A stretch of DNA of 64,000 bases from Fibrobacterota bacterium (GTDB taxonomy: Bacteria > Fibrobacterota > Chitinivibrionia > Chitinivibrionales > FEN-1185). Positions 94 through 55,600 of the stretch are shown here, in pieces (the stretch's first letter is position 1; the number at the start of each line of letters is the position of its first letter). The notes under the pieces are model-generated. The model was not told the origin of the DNA, did not search any database, and saw nothing but the letters and a program-made list of their open reading frames with translations. Both the position numbers and the translations under genes were made by a program. The stretch is from the NCBI GenBank assembly GCA_003165595.1, contig PLWQ01000033.1, positions 21,085 to 85,084 of the forward strand, in the 5' to 3' direction.

Positions 94-1302
94 ATGGCAA
101 AATTCAAAGGTAAGGCGCTTCTCCCCACCCAGTTCGTGCTCGACTCCATCGTCCCGTCGCTATTAACCAACCTCAATTACTGGCACATGCTGCCGCATCA
201 GGTGCGCAAGTACCTGATCCCGCACTCGTGGCACAAAGACATTCCTGTGGGGCAAATTTCGCTTCGTGTCAACGAGGTGTGCAACCTGCGGTGCGGCTCG
301 TGCGGCCAATGGGGCGAAAACGGGCACTTGTCGGCGAAGCTTGCGAGAGGCGAGAAGCTCCAGCAGCTCGATTTTGATGTTGTCAAGCGCGTGGTGTTCG
401 AGACGAGGCGCGACAAGCCGTACTACTACATCTGGGGCGGCGAACCCACCATATGGAAACCGCTGCTGCCGCTGTTTGAAGAACTGGCGAAGTACAAGCT
501 GCTCGGGTCAATTGTGTCCAACGCGCAGGCGCTCGATCCGATCATCGGGGATCTCGTCGCCACCGGCGCGCTTTCGGTGCTGTTTCTCAGTCTTGACGGA
601 TGGGACGCGAAATCCCAGAACGTCATGCGGTCGGCCGCCAACGGGAAGATGTCGGATAACTTCGAAAAGACCATGGCGGTCATAGACAAGGTGCACGACA
701 TCAAGCAGAGGAAACATCTCAAGTTCCCGATTGTCATTCCCATCTCGGTAATCTCAAACGGCAATTACACGCACCTTGCCGACATTCACCGGCTCGTTAT
801 CGACAAAACCCAACTGCACCCGTACTACTTCGGCTGGTTCATCACCGAGGAGCGCGCCGCGCTTCACGAAAAAGTATTCGAGGAACGGTTCGGCTATAAG
901 CCGAAGAACCATCGCGGCTATCTCAAGTCCTGCTTCAACGACGTCGACCCGGCGGTCACCGCAGCCCAGATCGCCGAAGTGACGAGGATTTCCAAAGGCC
1001 GGTCGTCGGTTCCCCAGTTCCTGCCCGATATCACCACCGAAGCGGAAATAGCCCGCTATTATTCGGACCACACGTGGCATTGCGGCTATCCGAGCTGCGA
1101 GAGCATTTATTTTATCGCTGAGGTCTCGCCGGACGGCCGCGTTACGCCCTGCCGCGATTACCAGGACTACACCGCGGGCAACATCAACGACCAGACGTTC
1201 TACGACATCTGGAACGGCGAGAAATTCAAGCTTTTCAGAAGGGAAATGGAGAAGGGCTTGATGCCGGTGTGCACCCGGTGCTGCGGGTTGCAGGGATTCT
1301 AG
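94..1302 (+). CDS. Radical SAM protein with SPASM-like C-terminus
   Basis: A 402-residue radical SAM enzyme. The cluster-binding CX3CX2C motif is C63, C67, C70 within VNEVCNLRCGSCGQ, followed by a GGEPT-type motif (WGGEPTIWK) typical of the S-adenosylmethionine-binding barrel. The last 70 residues carry a second cysteine set (CGYPSC, VTPCRDY, CTRCCG) with the phrase GNINDQTFYDIWNGEKF, the signature of SPASM/twitch domains that hold auxiliary Fe-S clusters. Family members modify peptides or act as anaerobic maturases; the substrate cannot be read from this sequence. No precursor peptide gene is visible within the window beside it. The start follows an AAAAGGAATAG ribosome-binding site. It converges on the histidine kinase at 1394-4123. 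Confidence 0.85.
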   Translation: MAKFKGKALLPTQFVLDSIVPSLLTNLNYWHMLPHQVRKYLIPHSWHKDIPVGQISLRVNEVCNLRCGSCGQWGENGHLSAKLARGEKLQQLDFDVVKRVVFETRRDKPYYYIWGGEPTIWKPLLPLFEELAKYKLLGSIVSNAQALDPIIGDLVATGALSVLFLSLDGWDAKSQNVMRSAANGKMSDNFEKTMAVIDKVHDIKQRKHLKFPIVIPISVISNGNYTHLADIHRLVIDKTQLHPYYFGWFITEERAALHEKVFEERFGYKPKNHRGYLKSCFNDVDPAVTAAQIAEVTRISKGRSSVPQFLPDITTEAEIARYYSDHTWHCGYPSCESIYFIAEVSPDGRVTPCRDYQDYTAGNINDQTFYDIWNGEKFKLFRREMEKGLMPVCTRCCGLQGF

Positions 1303-1393: not shown

Positions 1394-4123
1394 TCAACTG
1401 TCAACTTTCAACTTTAAACCAATCTTCTCTTCGTCTCCGGGGTGAGGATTCATGCCGCCGCCGTCCGGCGCTTCTGCGGGAAGATACACGTTGAACGTGG
1501 AGCCCTTTCCCGGCTCGGAGCTGACGGTTATATATCCGTCGTGTTTCCTGATTATTGAATAGGCCGTGGTGAGCCCGAGCCCGTTGCAGTTCGGCTTCGT
1601 GGTGAAATACGGATCGAATATTTTTTCGAGGTTTTCCGCGGGAATGCCGACGCCTTCGTCCTGTATCGATATGCAGACGTAATTGCCGGGCTCGAGGTTG
1701 GAGTCGCGCACCACATGGCTGCCGGAGCGCTCACTGTTGGCGCCGATTGTAACATTGCGCGCGCTTATGGTGATTGTCCCGCCCGGCCGCATGGCCTGGT
1801 CGGCGTTTACCACGAGGTTGCTCATGGCCTGGTCGATTTGACCCCGGTCGATGTCGACGGGCAGCAGGTTTTCGGGAAGATCGAGGCGGTAGGCTGCGCT
1901 CGATCCCGACAGCGAGAATCCCACGGAGTCTTCGATAAGCGCCTTTATCGACGAGCGTTCCTTTACAAGCGCGCCACCCTTGGAGAAGGTGAGCAGTTGC
2001 TTGGTAATCCGGCTTGCGCGAAACGCCGCCGCTTCGGCGCTTGTGATGCTGCGGTATGCGTCGTCACCCGCCTTGAGGAAGATCTTGGCTGCAAAGAGGT
2101 GGGTGACGATTTCCGACAGAATTACGCTGAAATCATTTGCGATGCCGGCGGCAAGCACACCCATGGATTCGAGTTTGCGCGCCTTGAATAATTCCGCTTC
2201 GAGCGTTTTTCGGTCGGTGATGTCGCGAATGACCAGGACCATGCCGACGATGCGGCCCGACGTCTCCTTGATAGGAGCGCCGATGCACGAAATGCTGCGC
2301 CGCGAACCGTCCCGCGCAACAAGGAGCGTATCGTCGTCGATCGAGACGTCGCCCCGGGTGGCAACAATATCGCTCAAGGGGTTGGGGCGGCGCGCCATGG
2401 ATCGTTCGTTCACCAGGTAAAGGCATTCGTCGATGTTCCTGCCAAAGGCCTCGCTTTGCGGCCAGCCGGTGAGGCGGCCGCCGGCGCTATTGACAAGACG
2501 GATTCTGCCGGCGGTGTCCGTGGTGATCACCGCGTCGCCTATGCTGGCGAGCGTCACTGCGAGACGTTCCTTCTCCGCGGCAAGCTCGTCTTCGGCTGCC
2601 TTGCGGTCGGTGATGTCGGCGCCCACGGCCTGGAACTCGGCGAACCCTGCAAACTCGTCGTAGAGCGGGCGAACCACAAGGTGCTGCCACCTCACCGCGC
2701 CGTCCTTTGCCCGCACGCGGCATTCGATGGGCGCGGGTTTGTCTGAGCGGGCGCATTCGTCCATCTGCGCGCGAAACGCGTCCCGGTCCGAGCTTGCGAT
2801 GATCCGCAGCAAAGGGTGGCCCACCAGCGACTCCTGCCCTGCCCCGAAATACCGGCAGAAAGCCGTATTGACAAACGTGAGTGTCGTATCGGGCAGGAAG
2901 CGGCAGATTATTTCGGTGTGGTCTTCAACGATGCCGCGGTATCGTCTCTCGCTATTGCGGATCTCCTCTTCGGCAAGCATTCTATTGGCGAGCTCGATGT
3001 TGAGTTCTTCCGTGCGCAGGGCAACTTTGCTCTCCAGCTCGCTGCGAGCGTCCTGGAGCGCTTCCTCGGCGCGTTTTCGCTCCGTGATATCCCGGCAGAT
3101 AAAAACCATGCCGGAAATTTCATCATTGTCGTCCTTGAGCGTCGATGCGGACAGGGAGACCGGCACCATGCGCTGGTTGGACGCCTTGAGCGATGCCGGG
3201 ATATCGCTGATGCATCCTGCGGACAGGAAGGTGGAAAACCACGTTCTGTCGGACAATGCCGGGGTTGGGGGGCTGTCCGCCAGAATGGCGTCGAGCGGCC
3301 TGCCGATCAGCTCATCCTTTACCATGGCGAGCATTTTGCACATTGCATTGTTCACCATCCGGATCGTGTCCTCATCGTTGACGATGATGAGGCCGTCGGT
3401 CATTGTCGAAATGATGTTGTCCGCGGCCATGGCCGGACTAAGGTTGAACAGCCGGTGTTTCCAGATGCCGTATCCGATGAGCGCGAAAGCGATGACAAAT
3501 GTGGTTATTGTAAAATCGGGAATCTGCTTTTGGGTGTAAAACTCGACGCTGTAGGTAACGATTCCGGTAACCACAGGTACGCAGATTCCCAGGGCAACAT
3601 ACTTTGCCTGTTTCTTTCTGGAATGCCCGCGCACCAAAAGAAAATGGCGCATCGAGACAATCACCGAGGTTATCCCCATGGCAAAAACCCAGATCATATC
3701 AACCTTGAACAGTGCGTCACTCTTGAGAGCGTATGTCCATCCCCAATACACTTTGAGCGGCAACCCCAGCACATGGTGTTGCCATATGTCAAGAATGATG
3801 AAGGCGAGCGCCGGCGTGTAGAGGGCGATTGGAACAAATGGATTACGGAGATACCGTCCTTTTTCGGAAAATACAAGGGAGAAATGGAGCAGGATTGGCA
3901 GGGAAAGATGCCACAGGGAGAACAGGTCGAACCAGACCCTCGCGTCCAGACCGGTATCAGCGTCGCGCAAACCGAATTCGGTGAACCCCCAGAATGACAC
4001 AGAAAGTCCGAGCAGCAGGAACATCCTGTTGGTATATTGCCGGGGATTTCTGAGAAAAACGAATATGCCAAGAAAAAGGCTTGCGACAAATCCAATAAGC
4101 GACAAAAGCACAAACGGGTTCAT
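1394..4123 (-). CDS. Membrane PAS histidine kinase-like protein lacking the phospho-acceptor His
   Basis: 909 residues. Residues 1-225 hold about seven hydrophobic helices (histidine-kinase N-terminal 7TM type). Three PAS/PAC units follow (about 235-350, 395-515 and 515-640), then a HisKA-like helix and a HATPase_c domain (about 755-890) with intact N, G1 and G2 boxes (NLVVNADQAM, DEGVGIP, GLGLTTAYSI). The dimerisation helix reads KLESMGVLAAGIANDF, whereas the family pattern, and the paralogue at 51611-55342, is GGIAHDFNN. Residue 663 (codon at 2135-2137) is therefore Asn rather than the phosphorylated His. ATP binding looks intact but canonical autophosphorylation should fail. No receiver domain is attached. 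The tail GLKLKVDS and its stop codon are written in an intergenic phrase repeat. A 10-bp palindrome TAAGCGCTTA lies 15 nt before the start. Confidence 0.85.
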   Translation of the reverse strand: MNPFVLLSLIGFVASLFLGIFVFLRNPRQYTNRMFLLLGLSVSFWGFTEFGLRDADTGLDARVWFDLFSLWHLSLPILLHFSLVFSEKGRYLRNPFVPIALYTPALAFIILDIWQHHVLGLPLKVYWGWTYALKSDALFKVDMIWVFAMGITSVIVSMRHFLLVRGHSRKKQAKYVALGICVPVVTGIVTYSVEFYTQKQIPDFTITTFVIAFALIGYGIWKHRLFNLSPAMAADNIISTMTDGLIIVNDEDTIRMVNNAMCKMLAMVKDELIGRPLDAILADSPPTPALSDRTWFSTFLSAGCISDIPASLKASNQRMVPVSLSASTLKDDNDEISGMVFICRDITERKRAEEALQDARSELESKVALRTEELNIELANRMLAEEEIRNSERRYRGIVEDHTEIICRFLPDTTLTFVNTAFCRYFGAGQESLVGHPLLRIIASSDRDAFRAQMDECARSDKPAPIECRVRAKDGAVRWQHLVVRPLYDEFAGFAEFQAVGADITDRKAAEDELAAEKERLAVTLASIGDAVITTDTAGRIRLVNSAGGRLTGWPQSEAFGRNIDECLYLVNERSMARRPNPLSDIVATRGDVSIDDDTLLVARDGSRRSISCIGAPIKETSGRIVGMVLVIRDITDRKTLEAELFKARKLESMGVLAAGIANDFSVILSEIVTHLFAAKIFLKAGDDAYRSITSAEAAAFRASRITKQLLTFSKGGALVKERSSIKALIEDSVGFSLSGSSAAYRLDLPENLLPVDIDRGQIDQAMSNLVVNADQAMRPGGTITISARNVTIGANSERSGSHVVRDSNLEPGNYVCISIQDEGVGIPAENLEKIFDPYFTTKPNCNGLGLTTAYSIIRKHDGYITVSSEPGKGSTFNVYLPAEAPDGGGMNPHPGDEEKIGLKLKVDS

Positions 4124-4310: not shown

Positions 4311-4340
4311 TTGACGTCCGACTGTTCCTATTGTGATAAT
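4311..4340 (+). promoter_or_regulatory. Sigma-70-type promoter for the FlgT-like gene
   Basis: TTGACG at 4311-4316 and GATAAT at 4335-4340 are separated by 18 bp. Transcription would start near 4347, upstream of the ribosome-binding site AGGAGG at 4379-4384. This argues against the longer open frame that begins inside the promoter. Confidence 0.6.
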
Positions 4341-4391
4341 ATATATTCCTATTTCGAAGTAGCTTTCAGGACCAAACCAGGAGGAACGGCC

Positions 4392-5537
4392 ATGGGGAAG
4401 ACCTTACTCGCGATTGCCGGATGCGTGCTGCTCTTGGGAGCCGCACTCTATGCTGCGGACGACGAAACGATCATTGCGGAAGGAAGCGGTGAAGGCGCGA
4501 ATCCCGAAGAAGCCCTTCTGGCGGCCAAGCGAAACGCCATTGAAAAAGGCATAGGCACCATCCTTCTTTCACAGACGGAAATCGAGAATTTCCAGGTAAA
4601 ACGGGACCAGATAATCACCAAGACCATGGGTTCGGTAAAGAGCTACGAAAAGATCTCGGAAGGAAAGTCCGCCGGCGGGTATTACGAAGTCAAGATCAAG
4701 GCGGTGCTTTCAAGAAGTTCGATAAACCAGGACCTTGCCGCTTTCCATATTCTTATCGAGTCAATGAACAAGCCCAGGACTATGGTGATCATTGACGAAA
4801 GCAATATCGGCACTGCCGAGCCGAATAATTCCGCAGCCGAAACCGCCATTCTCCAGTTCCTCAAGGACCCCTACGAGTTCGAGCTTATCGATCCCAAGGC
4901 AAGCGCCGCCATCCGGAGTTCCGAAGAGAAAATGGCCAACATTGCCGGGGATGCCGCTGCCGCCGCGCAACTCGGCTCGCAAAACGGAGCCGAGGTCATC
5001 ATCACGGGCACGGCCGTGAGCAGGGAAGCGAAACAGTTGAGCCAGAACCTGGGCGGCATGGTTTCCGCGCAGGCCGACGTCACGCTGCGGGCCATCAATT
5101 GCAGCACGGGAAGCATCATCGGCACGGCATCGGCGCACGCCCCCATGGTTCACATAAGCGCGGCAACCGCCGGCTCGCAGGCAATCACCAAGGCTTCGCA
5201 GAAAGCAATAAAGGACTTGCTTGACAGAATCATTAAGGAATGGCAGAACCAGCAGAACAACGGCGTAACGCTTAGCCTCACCATTGCCGGGGTGAGCAAC
5301 TTCCGCCTCAAGAACGACCTTGTCCAGACGCTCACGTGGGTTCCCAACGTGAGCGCCGTGCACGAGCGCAACTGGGACATGCAAAGCAAGCTGCTCATGG
5401 TAGACATACAGTACAAAGGCAACGCCAACGGTTTTTGCACACGCATCGACGGGTTCAAGCTCAAATCGGGCGCAGGCAGCATCGCCGTATCGGGCCTCAA
5501 CGGCCTGCGCGTATCGCTGCAGGTTCAGGCGATGTAG
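4392..5537 (+). CDS. Secreted FlgT/LPP20-like protein
   Basis: 381 residues from the ATG at 4392, chosen because AGGAGG sits 8 nt upstream and a signal peptide follows at once (MGKTLLAIAGCVLLLGAALYA, cleavage near AxA). There is no lipobox. The mature N-terminus (GSGEGANPEEALLAAKRNAI, then a Tyr-rich segment ending YYEVKIKAVLS) resembles the LPP20/FlgT N-terminal domain, in which a beta-sheet packs on a long helix. A middle domain with IDESN and GAEVIITGTAVSRE resembles the TolB/FlgT middle domain. FlgT proteins support the flagellar basal body, but no flagellar gene is seen here, so a general periplasmic or envelope role is equally likely. The gene ends 78 bp before ispG. Confidence 0.6.
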   Translation: MGKTLLAIAGCVLLLGAALYAADDETIIAEGSGEGANPEEALLAAKRNAIEKGIGTILLSQTEIENFQVKRDQIITKTMGSVKSYEKISEGKSAGGYYEVKIKAVLSRSSINQDLAAFHILIESMNKPRTMVIIDESNIGTAEPNNSAAETAILQFLKDPYEFELIDPKASAAIRSSEEKMANIAGDAAAAAQLGSQNGAEVIITGTAVSREAKQLSQNLGGMVSAQADVTLRAINCSTGSIIGTASAHAPMVHISAATAGSQAITKASQKAIKDLLDRIIKEWQNQQNNGVTLSLTIAGVSNFRLKNDLVQTLTWVPNVSAVHERNWDMQSKLLMVDIQYKGNANGFCTRIDGFKLKSGAGSIAVSGLNGLRVSLQVQAM

Positions 5538-51610: not shown

Positions 51611-54600
51611 CTATCGAGACATCATGGCCCTCATCACGTCCTCCAGCTCGGCCAGGTTGTACGGCTTCCGAATCGAAGCGTCGAACGCGAAATCGCGGGG
51701 CCGTGCAATCACCGGGTCGTCGGAATAGCCGCTTGATGCGACAATCTTGACAGTTGGTGCAAGCTTCCGGAGTTGATCCTTGGTTGCCGTGCCGCCCATT
51801 CCGCCGGGGACGGTGAGGTCGAGAATAACAACGTCGAACGGCTTGCCCGATTGTGCCGCGCTTTGGAATTCGTCAATCGCCTCCTGCCCGTGCGAGGCCA
51901 CCGTCACGGCATAGCCCATGTTGCCGAGCATGGACTGCGCCACGTCACGGATGACATCCTCGTCGTCCATCACCAGCACCCGGCCGCTGCCCTTGAAACT
52001 GTTGCGTTGCTCAGCGACGTGCGCCGGCACCGCGGCCTTCCGGGACGCCGGAAGATAGATGGTGAACGTCGCGCCCATGCCCGGCCCGCTCTGCGCTTCG
52101 AGGGCGCCCTCATGCCGCTTCACAATAGAGTATGACGTTGCCAGCCCGAGGCCGCTACCTTTTTGTTTGGTGGTAAAAAACGGGTCAAAGATGCGCGATA
52201 GGTGCTCTTTGGCGATGCCGACCCCCTGGTCGCAAATGGAAACGCGCACGTAATTGCCCGCCGCAAGCTCCAGTGGGATCTCCCCGTCTGCCGGGACGTT
52301 TTCGGCGGTTATCGCCACTTCGCCGCCCATGGGCATCGCATCGCGCGCATTGATGACGATATTGTCGAGCACCTGGCTAATCTGGTTTTCGTCAACGTCG
52401 CACAGCCACAGGTCGTCCGCCAGGTCGAACGTCGCCCTCACCGATGACCCGCTCAGGGCAAAATGCACCGCATCGCGGATAAGGGGAGACAGCGAGTGAG
52501 GCTTTCGCGATGGCGCGCCTCCCTTGGAAAAGGTGAGGAGCTGGCCGGTAAGATCCTTTGCCCGTCCGAACACCGAAAACGCCTTGTCGAGATAATCCGC
52601 TGCCTTGTCGTTTTTCTTCACGCTCGATTTTGCAAGGTCGAGGTACCCGAACAGCCCGCTGAGCAGGTTGTTGAAATCGTGCGCGATGCCGCCGGCGAGC
52701 ACGCCCAGCGATTCCAGCTTCTGCGTATTTCGAAGCGCCAGATCCGCCTTGAGCTTCTCGGAAATATCGCGGAATACGAGCACAACGCCGATGACGACGC
52801 TGTCTTTGTCCCGGATGGGCGCACCGCTGTCGGCAATGGGGATTTCGCGGCCGTCTTTACTGATGAGAACCGTGTGGTTGGCCAGGCCGACAACCAGTCC
52901 CGAACTCAGCACTTTCTCAACCGGGCTTTCGAAGGGCTGCCGGGTGTCTTCGTTGATAATATCGAAAACGCCGGACAGCGGCCTGCCCCGGGCTTCGGCA
53001 AAAGGAACGCCGGTGAGCTGCTCCGCCACCTTGTTCATGAGCGAGACGCGGCCGTCAACATCGGTGGCGATGACGGCGTCGCCGATGCTGCGGAGCGTCA
53101 CCGCCAGACGTTCCTTTTCGGCAACCAGCGCGTCTTCGGCGCGTTTCTTCTCTGTGATATCCTCGAGAATCACCAGGCTGTATTGGTGCGTTCCCCGATC
53201 GTCGCGCAAGGATGACAGGGTGAGTGATCCATACAGGGTTTCGCCCGACTTCTTGACATACCGTTTTTCTGTTTTATAAACGGGGATTTCACCGCGGATG
53301 AGCTGTCCTACCGCGACCGCGTCACCGGTGAGGTGGTCGGGATGAGTGATGTCCTTAAAGGTGAGCTTCAACAGCTCCTGCTCGGTATACCCGAGCATAG
53401 CGCAGAACGCGGGGTTTACCGCGACGAAGACATTGTTTTTGTCCGACAGCGCCTTGCCAAGCGAGCTCTGTTCAAAAATCCGCCTGAACTTCTCCTCGCT
53501 CTCCTTGAGCGCCTGTTCGGCCATGTACCGTTCCGATATATCCAGAATCGTAGTCACCCGCAAATTCCTGCCGCCAGTTTGCATTGTGCGGCCCCGGATT
53601 TCCACGGGAAATTCACCGCCGCCCTTTCGAACCGCATGGAGTTCAATGGCGCCCGGTGTCTGCCGTTGCATGGTCGGGATAACCTTTTCGCGATCGGACG
53701 AAGCGACAAAGTCCCGAATCGGCTTGCCAATCACCTCCTCGCGGGTGAATCCGAACATGCGTGTCAGCTGGTCGTTAATGTCGATAATGAGCCCTTGTTC
53801 ACTCAGACAAACCCCTTCGAAAGCGGCATCAGTCAAGGCCCGGAGCCGTGCCTCGCTTTCCCTGAGCAATTCCTCTGCTTGTTTCCATTCGCTGACGTCG
53901 CGGAACACCAGTACCACGCCCAGAATATTTCCCTGAGCGTCGCGGATGGGCGCGCCGCTGTCTGCGATCGCGTGTTCGGTGCCATCCCGGGCGATGAGGG
54001 CGGTATGGTTGGCGAGGCCGACAACCGTTCCGTTTTTCAGCACCTTTTCAACCGGGTTTTCGCATTTTGCCCGGGTCTGCTCGTTGATAATATGGAAAAC
54101 CTCGAACAGCGGCCGGCCCGCGGCCTCGGTTACCACCCAGCCCGTGAGCTGCTCGGCCACCCCGTTCATCAGGGCTATCTCGCCTTTGGTGTCCGTTGTT
54201 ATCACGCCGTCGCCGATGCTGCGCAGTGTCACGAGCAGGCGCTCCTTTTCCGCGGCCAGCGACGCGGCGAGTTCCGATGTTTCCTTTTCCGCAAGATACA
54301 GGCGCTTGTACGCCTTCGACGACCGGTTTCGCTGAACCAGGGCGGTGACGACGCCGATCAACATGATAAGCAGAATGACCGCAACCATCGCGCGAACAAA
54401 AAGGGTCTGCGTGTCCGCGAACGCTTCGCTTTTGTCCAGCTTGGCGATCATGAACCAGGGCGTTCCGGGAATGGGCCGGGCAACGGCGAGCACGGGAACA
54501 CCACGGTAGTCCCTGCCTTCCATGGCGCCCCTGAAACCGGCAATGGCCCTGGAAGCGGGAAGTGCCGTGTCGTCCAAAGGGAGCCTCAGCGTAAGCGCGG

Positions 54601-55342
54601 CGTGCCTTTTATGCCGCAGTCGGTTGAGGAATATAACGCTGTCACCTTCTTTACGAACAAGAAGCACTTCCGCCGTGGGGCTGGGCAAAGGCCACGACTG
54701 AATGATCGGGAACAGGAAGTTCTTGGGGTCTATGTCCAGATCAACCGCGCCAATGGACGCGGTGTCTTTGCCCGCACGCGGGTACACCGGGACTATGAGG
54801 TCGAAATGGAGGTCGTTGGGGCCGGTGCCGTCCCTATGCAAATCGGACAGCATGATCCTGTGCAGCGAGAGCGAGGAATCGAAAAGAGGGCGTATTCCGG
54901 GCGCAATAGCCATGGCAAAGGTGTCGGGAAACGACAGTATCTTCCCACCACGGGCATCGAACAGTGTTACCGAGCGGTAGTGCCCTGCAATGACGAGCTG
55001 CGAAAGCCATTTGGAAAGCTCGGTCTTCGATGCTGCATCACGCACCGAACGGAAATGTTTTTCGAGAAGCAAGGAAACAAACGGATCACACCTGATCATC
55101 TCCGCATCCGTAAGCCGCTCATTCCGCCAGTTGATTATCTGGCCCGCTTTCAGGTCCGCGATCGTTGAAAGCTCGGCTTGTGCTTCCCGCTTGATCGCTT
55201 TTTCACGCTGCGTGTAGAACAGCCAGCCCAGGCCGATGATGCATAGCGAAAGGACAGCAAAAACGGAGATGAGAAAACCAGGACTTCCGCCGAAATTGAC
55301 CGGAGATTGCAGAGCCGGAGGCATGGATTTGTTACGCGTCAT
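51611..55342 (-). CDS. Hybrid histidine kinase with Cache-like sensor, four PAS domains and receiver
   Basis: 1243 residues from the ATG at 55342 (AGGAG 6 nt upstream). Helices at about 25-47 and 315-337 bound a periplasmic Cache-like domain (GAVDLDIDPKNF). Four PAS/PAC units cover about 365-865. The HisKA helix reads KLESLGVLAGGIAHDFNNLL with the phospho-acceptor H888. A HATPase_c domain follows (VINARDAM, DQGVGIA, GSGLGLATSYSIV). A C-terminal receiver has LVMDDED, the acceptor Asp in VVILDLTVPGG and the Lys in IRKPYN. Intact, in contrast to the paralogue at 1394-4123. No output gene is adjacent. Confidence 0.95.
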   Translation of the reverse strand: MTRNKSMPPALQSPVNFGGSPGFLISVFAVLSLCIIGLGWLFYTQREKAIKREAQAELSTIADLKAGQIINWRNERLTDAEMIRCDPFVSLLLEKHFRSVRDAASKTELSKWLSQLVIAGHYRSVTLFDARGGKILSFPDTFAMAIAPGIRPLFDSSLSLHRIMLSDLHRDGTGPNDLHFDLIVPVYPRAGKDTASIGAVDLDIDPKNFLFPIIQSWPLPSPTAEVLLVRKEGDSVIFLNRLRHKRHAALTLRLPLDDTALPASRAIAGFRGAMEGRDYRGVPVLAVARPIPGTPWFMIAKLDKSEAFADTQTLFVRAMVAVILLIMLIGVVTALVQRNRSSKAYKRLYLAEKETSELAASLAAEKERLLVTLRSIGDGVITTDTKGEIALMNGVAEQLTGWVVTEAAGRPLFEVFHIINEQTRAKCENPVEKVLKNGTVVGLANHTALIARDGTEHAIADSGAPIRDAQGNILGVVLVFRDVSEWKQAEELLRESEARLRALTDAAFEGVCLSEQGLIIDINDQLTRMFGFTREEVIGKPIRDFVASSDREKVIPTMQRQTPGAIELHAVRKGGGEFPVEIRGRTMQTGGRNLRVTTILDISERYMAEQALKESEEKFRRIFEQSSLGKALSDKNNVFVAVNPAFCAMLGYTEQELLKLTFKDITHPDHLTGDAVAVGQLIRGEIPVYKTEKRYVKKSGETLYGSLTLSSLRDDRGTHQYSLVILEDITEKKRAEDALVAEKERLAVTLRSIGDAVIATDVDGRVSLMNKVAEQLTGVPFAEARGRPLSGVFDIINEDTRQPFESPVEKVLSSGLVVGLANHTVLISKDGREIPIADSGAPIRDKDSVVIGVVLVFRDISEKLKADLALRNTQKLESLGVLAGGIAHDFNNLLSGLFGYLDLAKSSVKKNDKAADYLDKAFSVFGRAKDLTGQLLTFSKGGAPSRKPHSLSPLIRDAVHFALSGSSVRATFDLADDLWLCDVDENQISQVLDNIVINARDAMPMGGEVAITAENVPADGEIPLELAAGNYVRVSICDQGVGIAKEHLSRIFDPFFTTKQKGSGLGLATSYSIVKRHEGALEAQSGPGMGATFTIYLPASRKAAVPAHVAEQRNSFKGSGRVLVMDDEDVIRDVAQSMLGNMGYAVTVASHGQEAIDEFQSAAQSGKPFDVVILDLTVPGGMGGTATKDQLRKLAPTVKIVASSGYSDDPVIARPRDFAFDASIRKPYNLAELEDVMRAMMSR

Positions 55343-55600
55343 CGGCATCTCCTCGCATGCTTTGACGCCTGCCGGGCGGCAGGTGCCGGGGAAAGGATTC
55401 TATGCTAATATAAGCATTAGGAGTCCGGAATGAAATCATTTGTTGGAGCGTGATTCTTGCCCCACCGCACTCTATCACCAGTGTCTGTCGTTGCCTGCAT
55501 TCGAAAGCAACCAATCGACGCGCTTATTCCGGCCAAGTCCGAAATAGTATATTAGGTCCTTTGTGCCGGCACTCATTAAAAATTGACGGACTGGAATCAT

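Follow-up and report, generated by a model that had tools for sequence, protein, structure and literature searches.

The window, i.e. the whole 64,000-nucleotide stretch of contig PLWQ01000033.1 that was analysed, contains a putative pseudo-histidine kinase gene between a radical SAM/SPASM gene and a LipL46-like gene, as well as a canonical hybrid kinase gene. The following features were assigned.

94..1302, plus strand: radical SAM/SPASM gene, convergent with the kinase gene, 85% identity to congeneric genome G001
1394..4123, minus strand: putative pseudo-histidine kinase gene, HisKA_7TM-PAS-PAS-PAS-DHp-CA, no receiver, 909-aa ORF
1394..1471, minus strand: C-terminal tail, residues 885-909 plus stop; relatives have a receiver at this place
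1472..1849, minus strand: HATPase_c (CA) domain, residues 759-884, N, G1, F and G2 boxes present (Pfam, alignment)
1982..2218, minus strand: DHp helices, residues 636-714 (AlphaFold2 model helices)
2123..2128, minus strand: Ser666-Val667 replacing Asn-Asn at H+3 and H+4 (alignment; role of H+4 from PMC3510030, in excerpt)
2135..2137, minus strand: Asn663 codon AAT, phospho-acceptor position (sequence)
2207..2548, minus strand: PAS domain 3, residues 526-639 (Pfam PAS_4)
2582..2959, minus strand: PAS domain 2, residues 389-514 (TIGR00229; Pfam PAS_3 at 416-491)
3080..3397, minus strand: PAS domain 1, residues 243-348 (Pfam PAS_9)
3434..4099, minus strand: HisKA_7TM sensor region, residues 9-230 (Pfam PF16927, E 7.8e-15)
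4311..5537, plus strand: LipL46-like gene, divergent from the kinase gene; in G001 it adjoins the radical SAM gene and the kinase gene is missing
51611..55348, minus strand: canonical hybrid kinase gene, His890 and receiver

The N-terminal HisKA_7TM domain (PF16927) of the 1394-4123 kinase scored 55.8 bits against a curated cut-off of 28.6, and the HATPase_c match covered positions 2-110 of the 111 in the Pfam model (E 5.9e-21). No Pfam match to HisKA or to the receiver model (PF00072) was found in this protein, and the open reading frame ended 25 residues past HATPase_c. In an alignment of the eight 7TM kinases described below, the other seven showed no such domain at the place of PAS domain 2. 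No NCBIfam equivalog cut-off was reached, the nearest models being of the CckA/AtoS type. An AlphaFold2 model of residues 635-889 (mean pLDDT 82.8, pTM 0.71) contained two DHp helices and a CA fold. Structure comparison aligned this model with ZraS, nucleotide-bound CckA, YycG-type kinases and DivL at Z values of 21-22; the large rmsd in some full-length structure rows is read as a probable difference in DHp-CA orientation. The closest solved DHp-CA sequence was CckA (5idj, E 1.2e-29). The neighbours of the kinase gene were the radical SAM, LipL46-like and IspG genes, and no regulator gene adjoined it.

Codon 663, at the phospho-acceptor site, read AAT (plus-strand coordinates 2135-2137, context MGVLAAGIANDFSVILSEI), and residues 666-667 were Ser-Val. 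The first-pass annotation had reported both the Asn and the replacement of the neighbouring Asn-Asn by Ser-Val, and had pointed to a His in the GIAHDF box of a paralogue. All of this was confirmed, the paralogue's His being residue 890 and its ORF ending at 55348, so that the earlier end of 55342 was six bases short. The ATP-binding boxes, described as apparently intact, were indeed so when 26 sequences were aligned: no N, G1, F or G2 position was missing, and the query kept the invariant columns N769 and N773; D822, G824 and G826; F836-F840; and G848 and G850. Among 103 homologous ORF hits from 96 loci, some of which are one gene fetched twice, the acceptor residue was His in 100, Asn in two (the query and a second protein of its own genome, G000, on contig C8) and Pro in one, a remote ORF. 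The own genome yielded 60 HATPase_c matches, 50 of them with a readable DHp H box (48 His, two Asn); two had no readable box (C37:195594 and C2:43224) and eight others were set aside as CheA-like, gyrase-like, anti-sigma-like or unclassified, with C9, C29 and C3:24629 represented by the match only. The C37 match (L206, G000:C37:195594-195848) covers part of a CA domain; its 295-aa frame is hydrophobic in the N-terminal part and contains no DHp, and it may be a broken or rearranged kinase. One survey found the acceptor His missing in 0.9% of HisKA domains (722 of 76,471; PMC12632262, in excerpt).

Two patterns, both of which miss TCN-coded Ser and other replacements, were run on 167 genomes of the phylum: for GxANDF, three of the 26 matches listed were kinases (the query, G000:C8 and G037:C341), and an A[NS][DE]F[ST]-like pattern gave six matches, including the four His-less 7TM kinases described below and two that were left unread. 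The other GxANDF matches with a readable ORF resembled other proteins, while several had no readable ORF; an own-genome match on C37 was rejected as a kinase and is by eye a diaminopimelate epimerase. The C8 protein (L161:5361-6947, G000:C8:28501-29529) is the second Asn-box kinase of the own genome, with a soluble PAS-DHp-CA-REC architecture and the box GLANDFNN. As it keeps Asn at H+4 and a receiver, by its residues it could be a kinase-dead phosphatase. The third Asn-box kinase (L160:5369-6922, G037:C341; GIANDFNN) also kept its receiver, comes from another family of the order and lies on a different tree branch. Within a literature mostly outside subscription journals, no His-less 7TM kinase of the query type was found, nor any report on Chitinivibrionales that dealt with a histidine kinase. 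To our knowledge, few proteins with a missing acceptor His have been studied.

The 7TM region and PAS domain 1 were used to search for relatives in 150 genomes of the phylum; 15 of these, the own genome included, had matches. Eight alignable kinases made up a same-order 7TM-PAS-DHp-CA group. Acceptor His and receiver were both present in all four of those from G007, G026, G029 and G037, and both absent in all four of the remainder, i.e. the query (Asn), G022 (Asn), G025 (Asn) and G028 (Ser). The boxes of the last three were NEFST, NEFST and SEFST, respectively, giving Glu at H+1, Ser at H+3 and Thr at H+4; the query had Asp at H+1, the same Ser at H+3, and Val at H+4. The G037 kinase had Asp at H+4. 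More distant 7TM kinases from G003, G009, G012, G027, G031 and G039, and two in G000, all had His, and the H box of two G041 7TM proteins was not readable. The first-pass annotation had considered that orthologues with His at this site would speak against its interpretation. The outcome was divided, with His in G007, G026, G029 and G037 but neither His nor receiver in G022, G025 and G028. The pseudokinase reading is left standing because the His-bearing relatives are receiver-carrying hybrid kinases and three others lack both features.

Across the homologous DHp-CA sequences the receiver was absent in eight of 72 rows, the query included and L054 not counted. Receivers were called by text pattern, with L162, L030 and L055 set by eye as present; L030 and L055 are cut short but show the start of a receiver, and L054 was removed, its chosen ORF not being the homologue. 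The receiver was absent in four of six non-His rows versus four of 65 His rows (Fisher p 0.00098, a statistic that ignores kinship). Tree-based pairing on the starred branches gave three independent pairs, in one or two of which the receiver went the same way as the His and in none the opposite way; with only three pairs the association cannot reach significance once kinship is counted. Counter-cases to the link were L161 and L160, which lack His and have a receiver, and L044, which has His and no receiver. L044:4002-4740 is a His-bearing kinase ending without a receiver, followed by what appears to be another gene. The eight 7TM kinases suggest that loss of the His and loss of the receiver are linked, with only two events behind the link.

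The DHp-CA tree was built from 72 rows, leaving out loci L060-L096 and excluding the columns from the acceptor to H+4. G022, G025 and G028 formed a clade (100/100) within a larger clade that included their His-bearing relatives (97/89). The query fell outside that clade, beside the C14 hybrid kinase of its own genome and the G001 counterpart of the latter, with weak support (82/16). On this tree four changes from His to non-His were needed, three of them forced by starred branches. Holding the four His-less 7TM kinases together lowered the log-likelihood by 21.5 (AU p 0.058), and a single DHp-CA clade of seven of the eight 7TM kinases (G007 out) was not rejected (p 0.357). On the 7TM+PAS1 tree, a single origin of the four was rejected by 29.9 log units (AU p 0.00098), which implies that His and receiver were lost jointly at least twice. 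Although the DHp-CA tree alone falls short of proof, we conclude that His/receiver loss happened at least twice. Such parallel loss of the His and the same output domain in distant relatives points to a functional pseudokinase and away from a sequencing error. The genomic sites also differed: the kinase adjoins one type of gene (IIPTYNERENI) in G022, G025, G028, G029 and G037 and a second gene in G026, both of which we take from their motifs to be glycosyltransferase-like, and the query lies at a different site.

Constraint was estimated from the G022/G028 pair, the query being without a close orthologue. Identity was 74.3% in DHp+CA and 55.7% in the 7TM/PAS half, and pN/pS was 0.20 and 0.36, respectively, with synonymous differences saturated. 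As the transmitter is more alike than the sensor half, the His-less transmitter is clearly under constraint in that lineage. Conservation of the query itself was assessed at 51 columns conserved at 95% or more in 55 His-bearing homologues, 11 more distant rows being left out. The query departed at eight (663, 666, 667, 706, 719, 766, 779 and 846), three of them within the H box; leave-one-out departures in the 55 His rows had a median of 1 and a maximum of 7, and the other five non-His rows had 6 to 10. The query is thus somewhat more divergent than its His-bearing kin. In G001, a genome of the same genus, the order radical SAM, LipL46-like, IspG was kept at 85, 84 and 81% identity, and the syntenic site had no kinase gene, the ~750 bases between the radical SAM and LipL46-like genes showing no similarity to the kinase. 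Either the window's lineage acquired the gene or that of G001 lost it, and its absence from G001 indicates that it is dispensable within the genus.

The first-pass annotation had proposed dimerisation with an active kinase and named the one at 51611 for an interaction test. This partner was not supported, as its DHp identity to the query was 36/74 versus 49/78 for the C14 paralogue (G000:C14:146816-148321), the nearest DHp among the own-genome kinases compared. Similar DHp domains give no more than a hint of heterodimer formation, and the C14 kinase as partner is our guess. In G028, G022 and G025, a small gene on the same strand lies 3' of the His-less kinase gene (L147:3921-4568, L148:4112-4696 and L149:3673-4257, respectively). 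All three have a signal-like start and a common SI[IM]E[RK][RK]MW motif, and the product is a possible co-transcribed partner.

With a DHp-CA core that lacks the acceptor His, the query is classed by its sequence and model as a predicted pseudo-histidine kinase. Compared with an active HisKA kinase, it had the CA boxes but neither the acceptor His nor Thr or Asn at H+4, and it lacked the C-terminal receiver of a hybrid histidine kinase. The earlier suggestion of a pseudokinase with 7TM and PAS input is well supported, the protein having Asn663, the HisKA_7TM domain, the three PAS domains and the intact ATP boxes. In CrdS, loss of the His removed kinase activity and left most phosphatase activity (Willett and Kirby, PMC3510030, in excerpt), and Ala at H+4 abolished phosphatase activity in CrdS, HK1190, HK4262 and HK853 (same excerpt). 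We infer from Asn663 and Val667 that neither activity is to be expected of the query, the substitution at H+4 in that paper being Ala rather than Val.

The best explanation, which we rate at about an even chance, is that the gene encodes a real pseudokinase, dead as a kinase and, with Val at H+4, as a phosphatase, and that it is a sensor acting by protein contact. Its ancestor would have been a hybrid 7TM-PAS kinase that lost the acceptor His, the H+4 phosphatase residue and the receiver. The protein would neither autophosphorylate nor donate phosphate, and judging from its residues it probably would not dephosphorylate a partner, but folding, dimerisation and ATP binding are probably retained. 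Input through the 7TM and PAS domains would change the shape of the DHp-CA core, which would contact an active kinase with a DHp of this type (the best candidate being the C14 kinase) or a response regulator, and this contact would tune phosphorylation of that kinase or regulator. Loss of activity, ATP binding, partner and mode of action are all predictions. Counting against the contact model, two-hybrid assays with ChrS gave heterodimers for the native kinases and none for the truncated, evolved pseudokinase (PMC9491836, in excerpt).

The gene could instead be a relic in decay: a former hybrid kinase gene, now without its His and receiver, that is drifting to loss and is open by chance. G001 has neither the gene nor a remnant, and no His row departs from as many conserved columns as the query does; yet 909 codons are open, every ATP box is kept, the departures are concentrated in the H box rather than evenly spread, and the parallel His-less lineage is clearly constrained. 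We consider this explanation unlikely, though worth serious attention. Somewhat harder to credit is a half-kinase that forms a heterodimer with a canonical subunit and whose CA domain phosphorylates that subunit's His, so that 7TM/PAS signals feed another kinase. The query keeps its ATP boxes and an acidic residue at H+1, the DHp is near that of the C14 hybrid kinase, and kinases acting in trans between subunits are known, e.g. RT-HK (PMC12148442, in excerpt), but the other lineage, with Glu at H+1, is no help in deciding. A kinase-dead protein that acts on a phosphorylated receiver, as a dedicated phosphatase or as a brake binding the receiver, is very doubtful for the query. Most phosphatase activity survives His loss in CrdS H371A (half-life 2.6 versus 0.7 min; PMC3510030, in excerpt), a protein that sensed receiver phosphorylation but had no phosphatase activity would resemble DivL (PMC4211667, in excerpt), and Thr at H+4 makes this reading fit G022, G025 and G028 well; the query has Val there, a position at which Ala, the substitution made in the former paper, abolished activity in four kinases. 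A base-calling or assembly error in one codon hardly deserves consideration: AAT is one base from a His codon and the genome is a 42-contig assembly, but two neighbouring near-invariant changes at residues 666-667 together with the missing receiver are not the product of one miscalled base, and three other genomes have a comparable set of changes.

Beyond the sensor acting by contact, a bolder proposal is that the 7TM hybrid kinases of the order repeatedly become output-less pseudokinases through joint loss of His and receiver, serving as signal-gated half-kinases or scaffolds whose CA domain works in trans on a canonical hybrid partner, with the receiver-bearing C8 Asn-box kinase as a further part of the network. 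We offer it as speculation that is probably wrong in this full form. The missing receiver, the meaning of H+4, the second lineage and the C8 Asn-box kinase were not seen in the first-pass annotation.

Among known systems, DivL of Caulobacter (PDB 4q20) resembles the query in having PAS and a DHp-CA core with the acceptor His replaced, the boxes kept and no receiver, a likeness that is a fold comparison (Z 21.2 for the query model). DivL has Tyr at the acceptor site, or Ala in one species, whereas the query has Asn, and DivL, which has neither activity, acts through contact (PMC4211667, in excerpt). PMC11481889 (in excerpt) also mentions a hybrid kinase of Caulobacter that lacks the His. The ChrS pseudokinase of Corynebacterium glutamicum is kinase-dead and alters signalling via a paralogous kinase (PMC9491836, in excerpt); it is a CA frameshift from laboratory evolution, whereas the CA domain of the query is intact. 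The query, unlike DivL, has a 7TM sensor. The G022, G025 and G028 kinases share with it HisKA_7TM, PAS, DHp and CA domains, a non-His site, Ser at H+3 and the lack of a receiver, but differ in Glu at H+1, Thr at H+4, fewer PAS domains, another genomic site and, on the 7TM+PAS1 tree, an independent origin. CckA/AtoS-type kinases with PAS and HDFNN have the nearest DHp-CA sequences among solved structures and NCBIfam models but are active and have the His. RetS of Pseudomonas aeruginosa is likewise a kinase-like sensor, is also a 7TM protein and is known to control another kinase. RetS has receivers and exerts phosphatase and phosphate-siphoning effects, whereas the query has neither a receiver nor the phosphatase residue. 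RetS blocks GacS via a DHp-DHp heterodimer (PMC12148439, in excerpt). One order offers a natural series, from 7TM kinases with His and receiver to related ones with neither, including a second, independent case in which the phosphatase residue has gone as well, and makes testable what role is left to a histidine kinase without its phosphoryl donor, phosphatase residue and output domain. Pseudo-histidine kinases are already known; added here are the joint disappearance of His and receiver, a second and independent instance of it, and the loss of the phosphatase residue.
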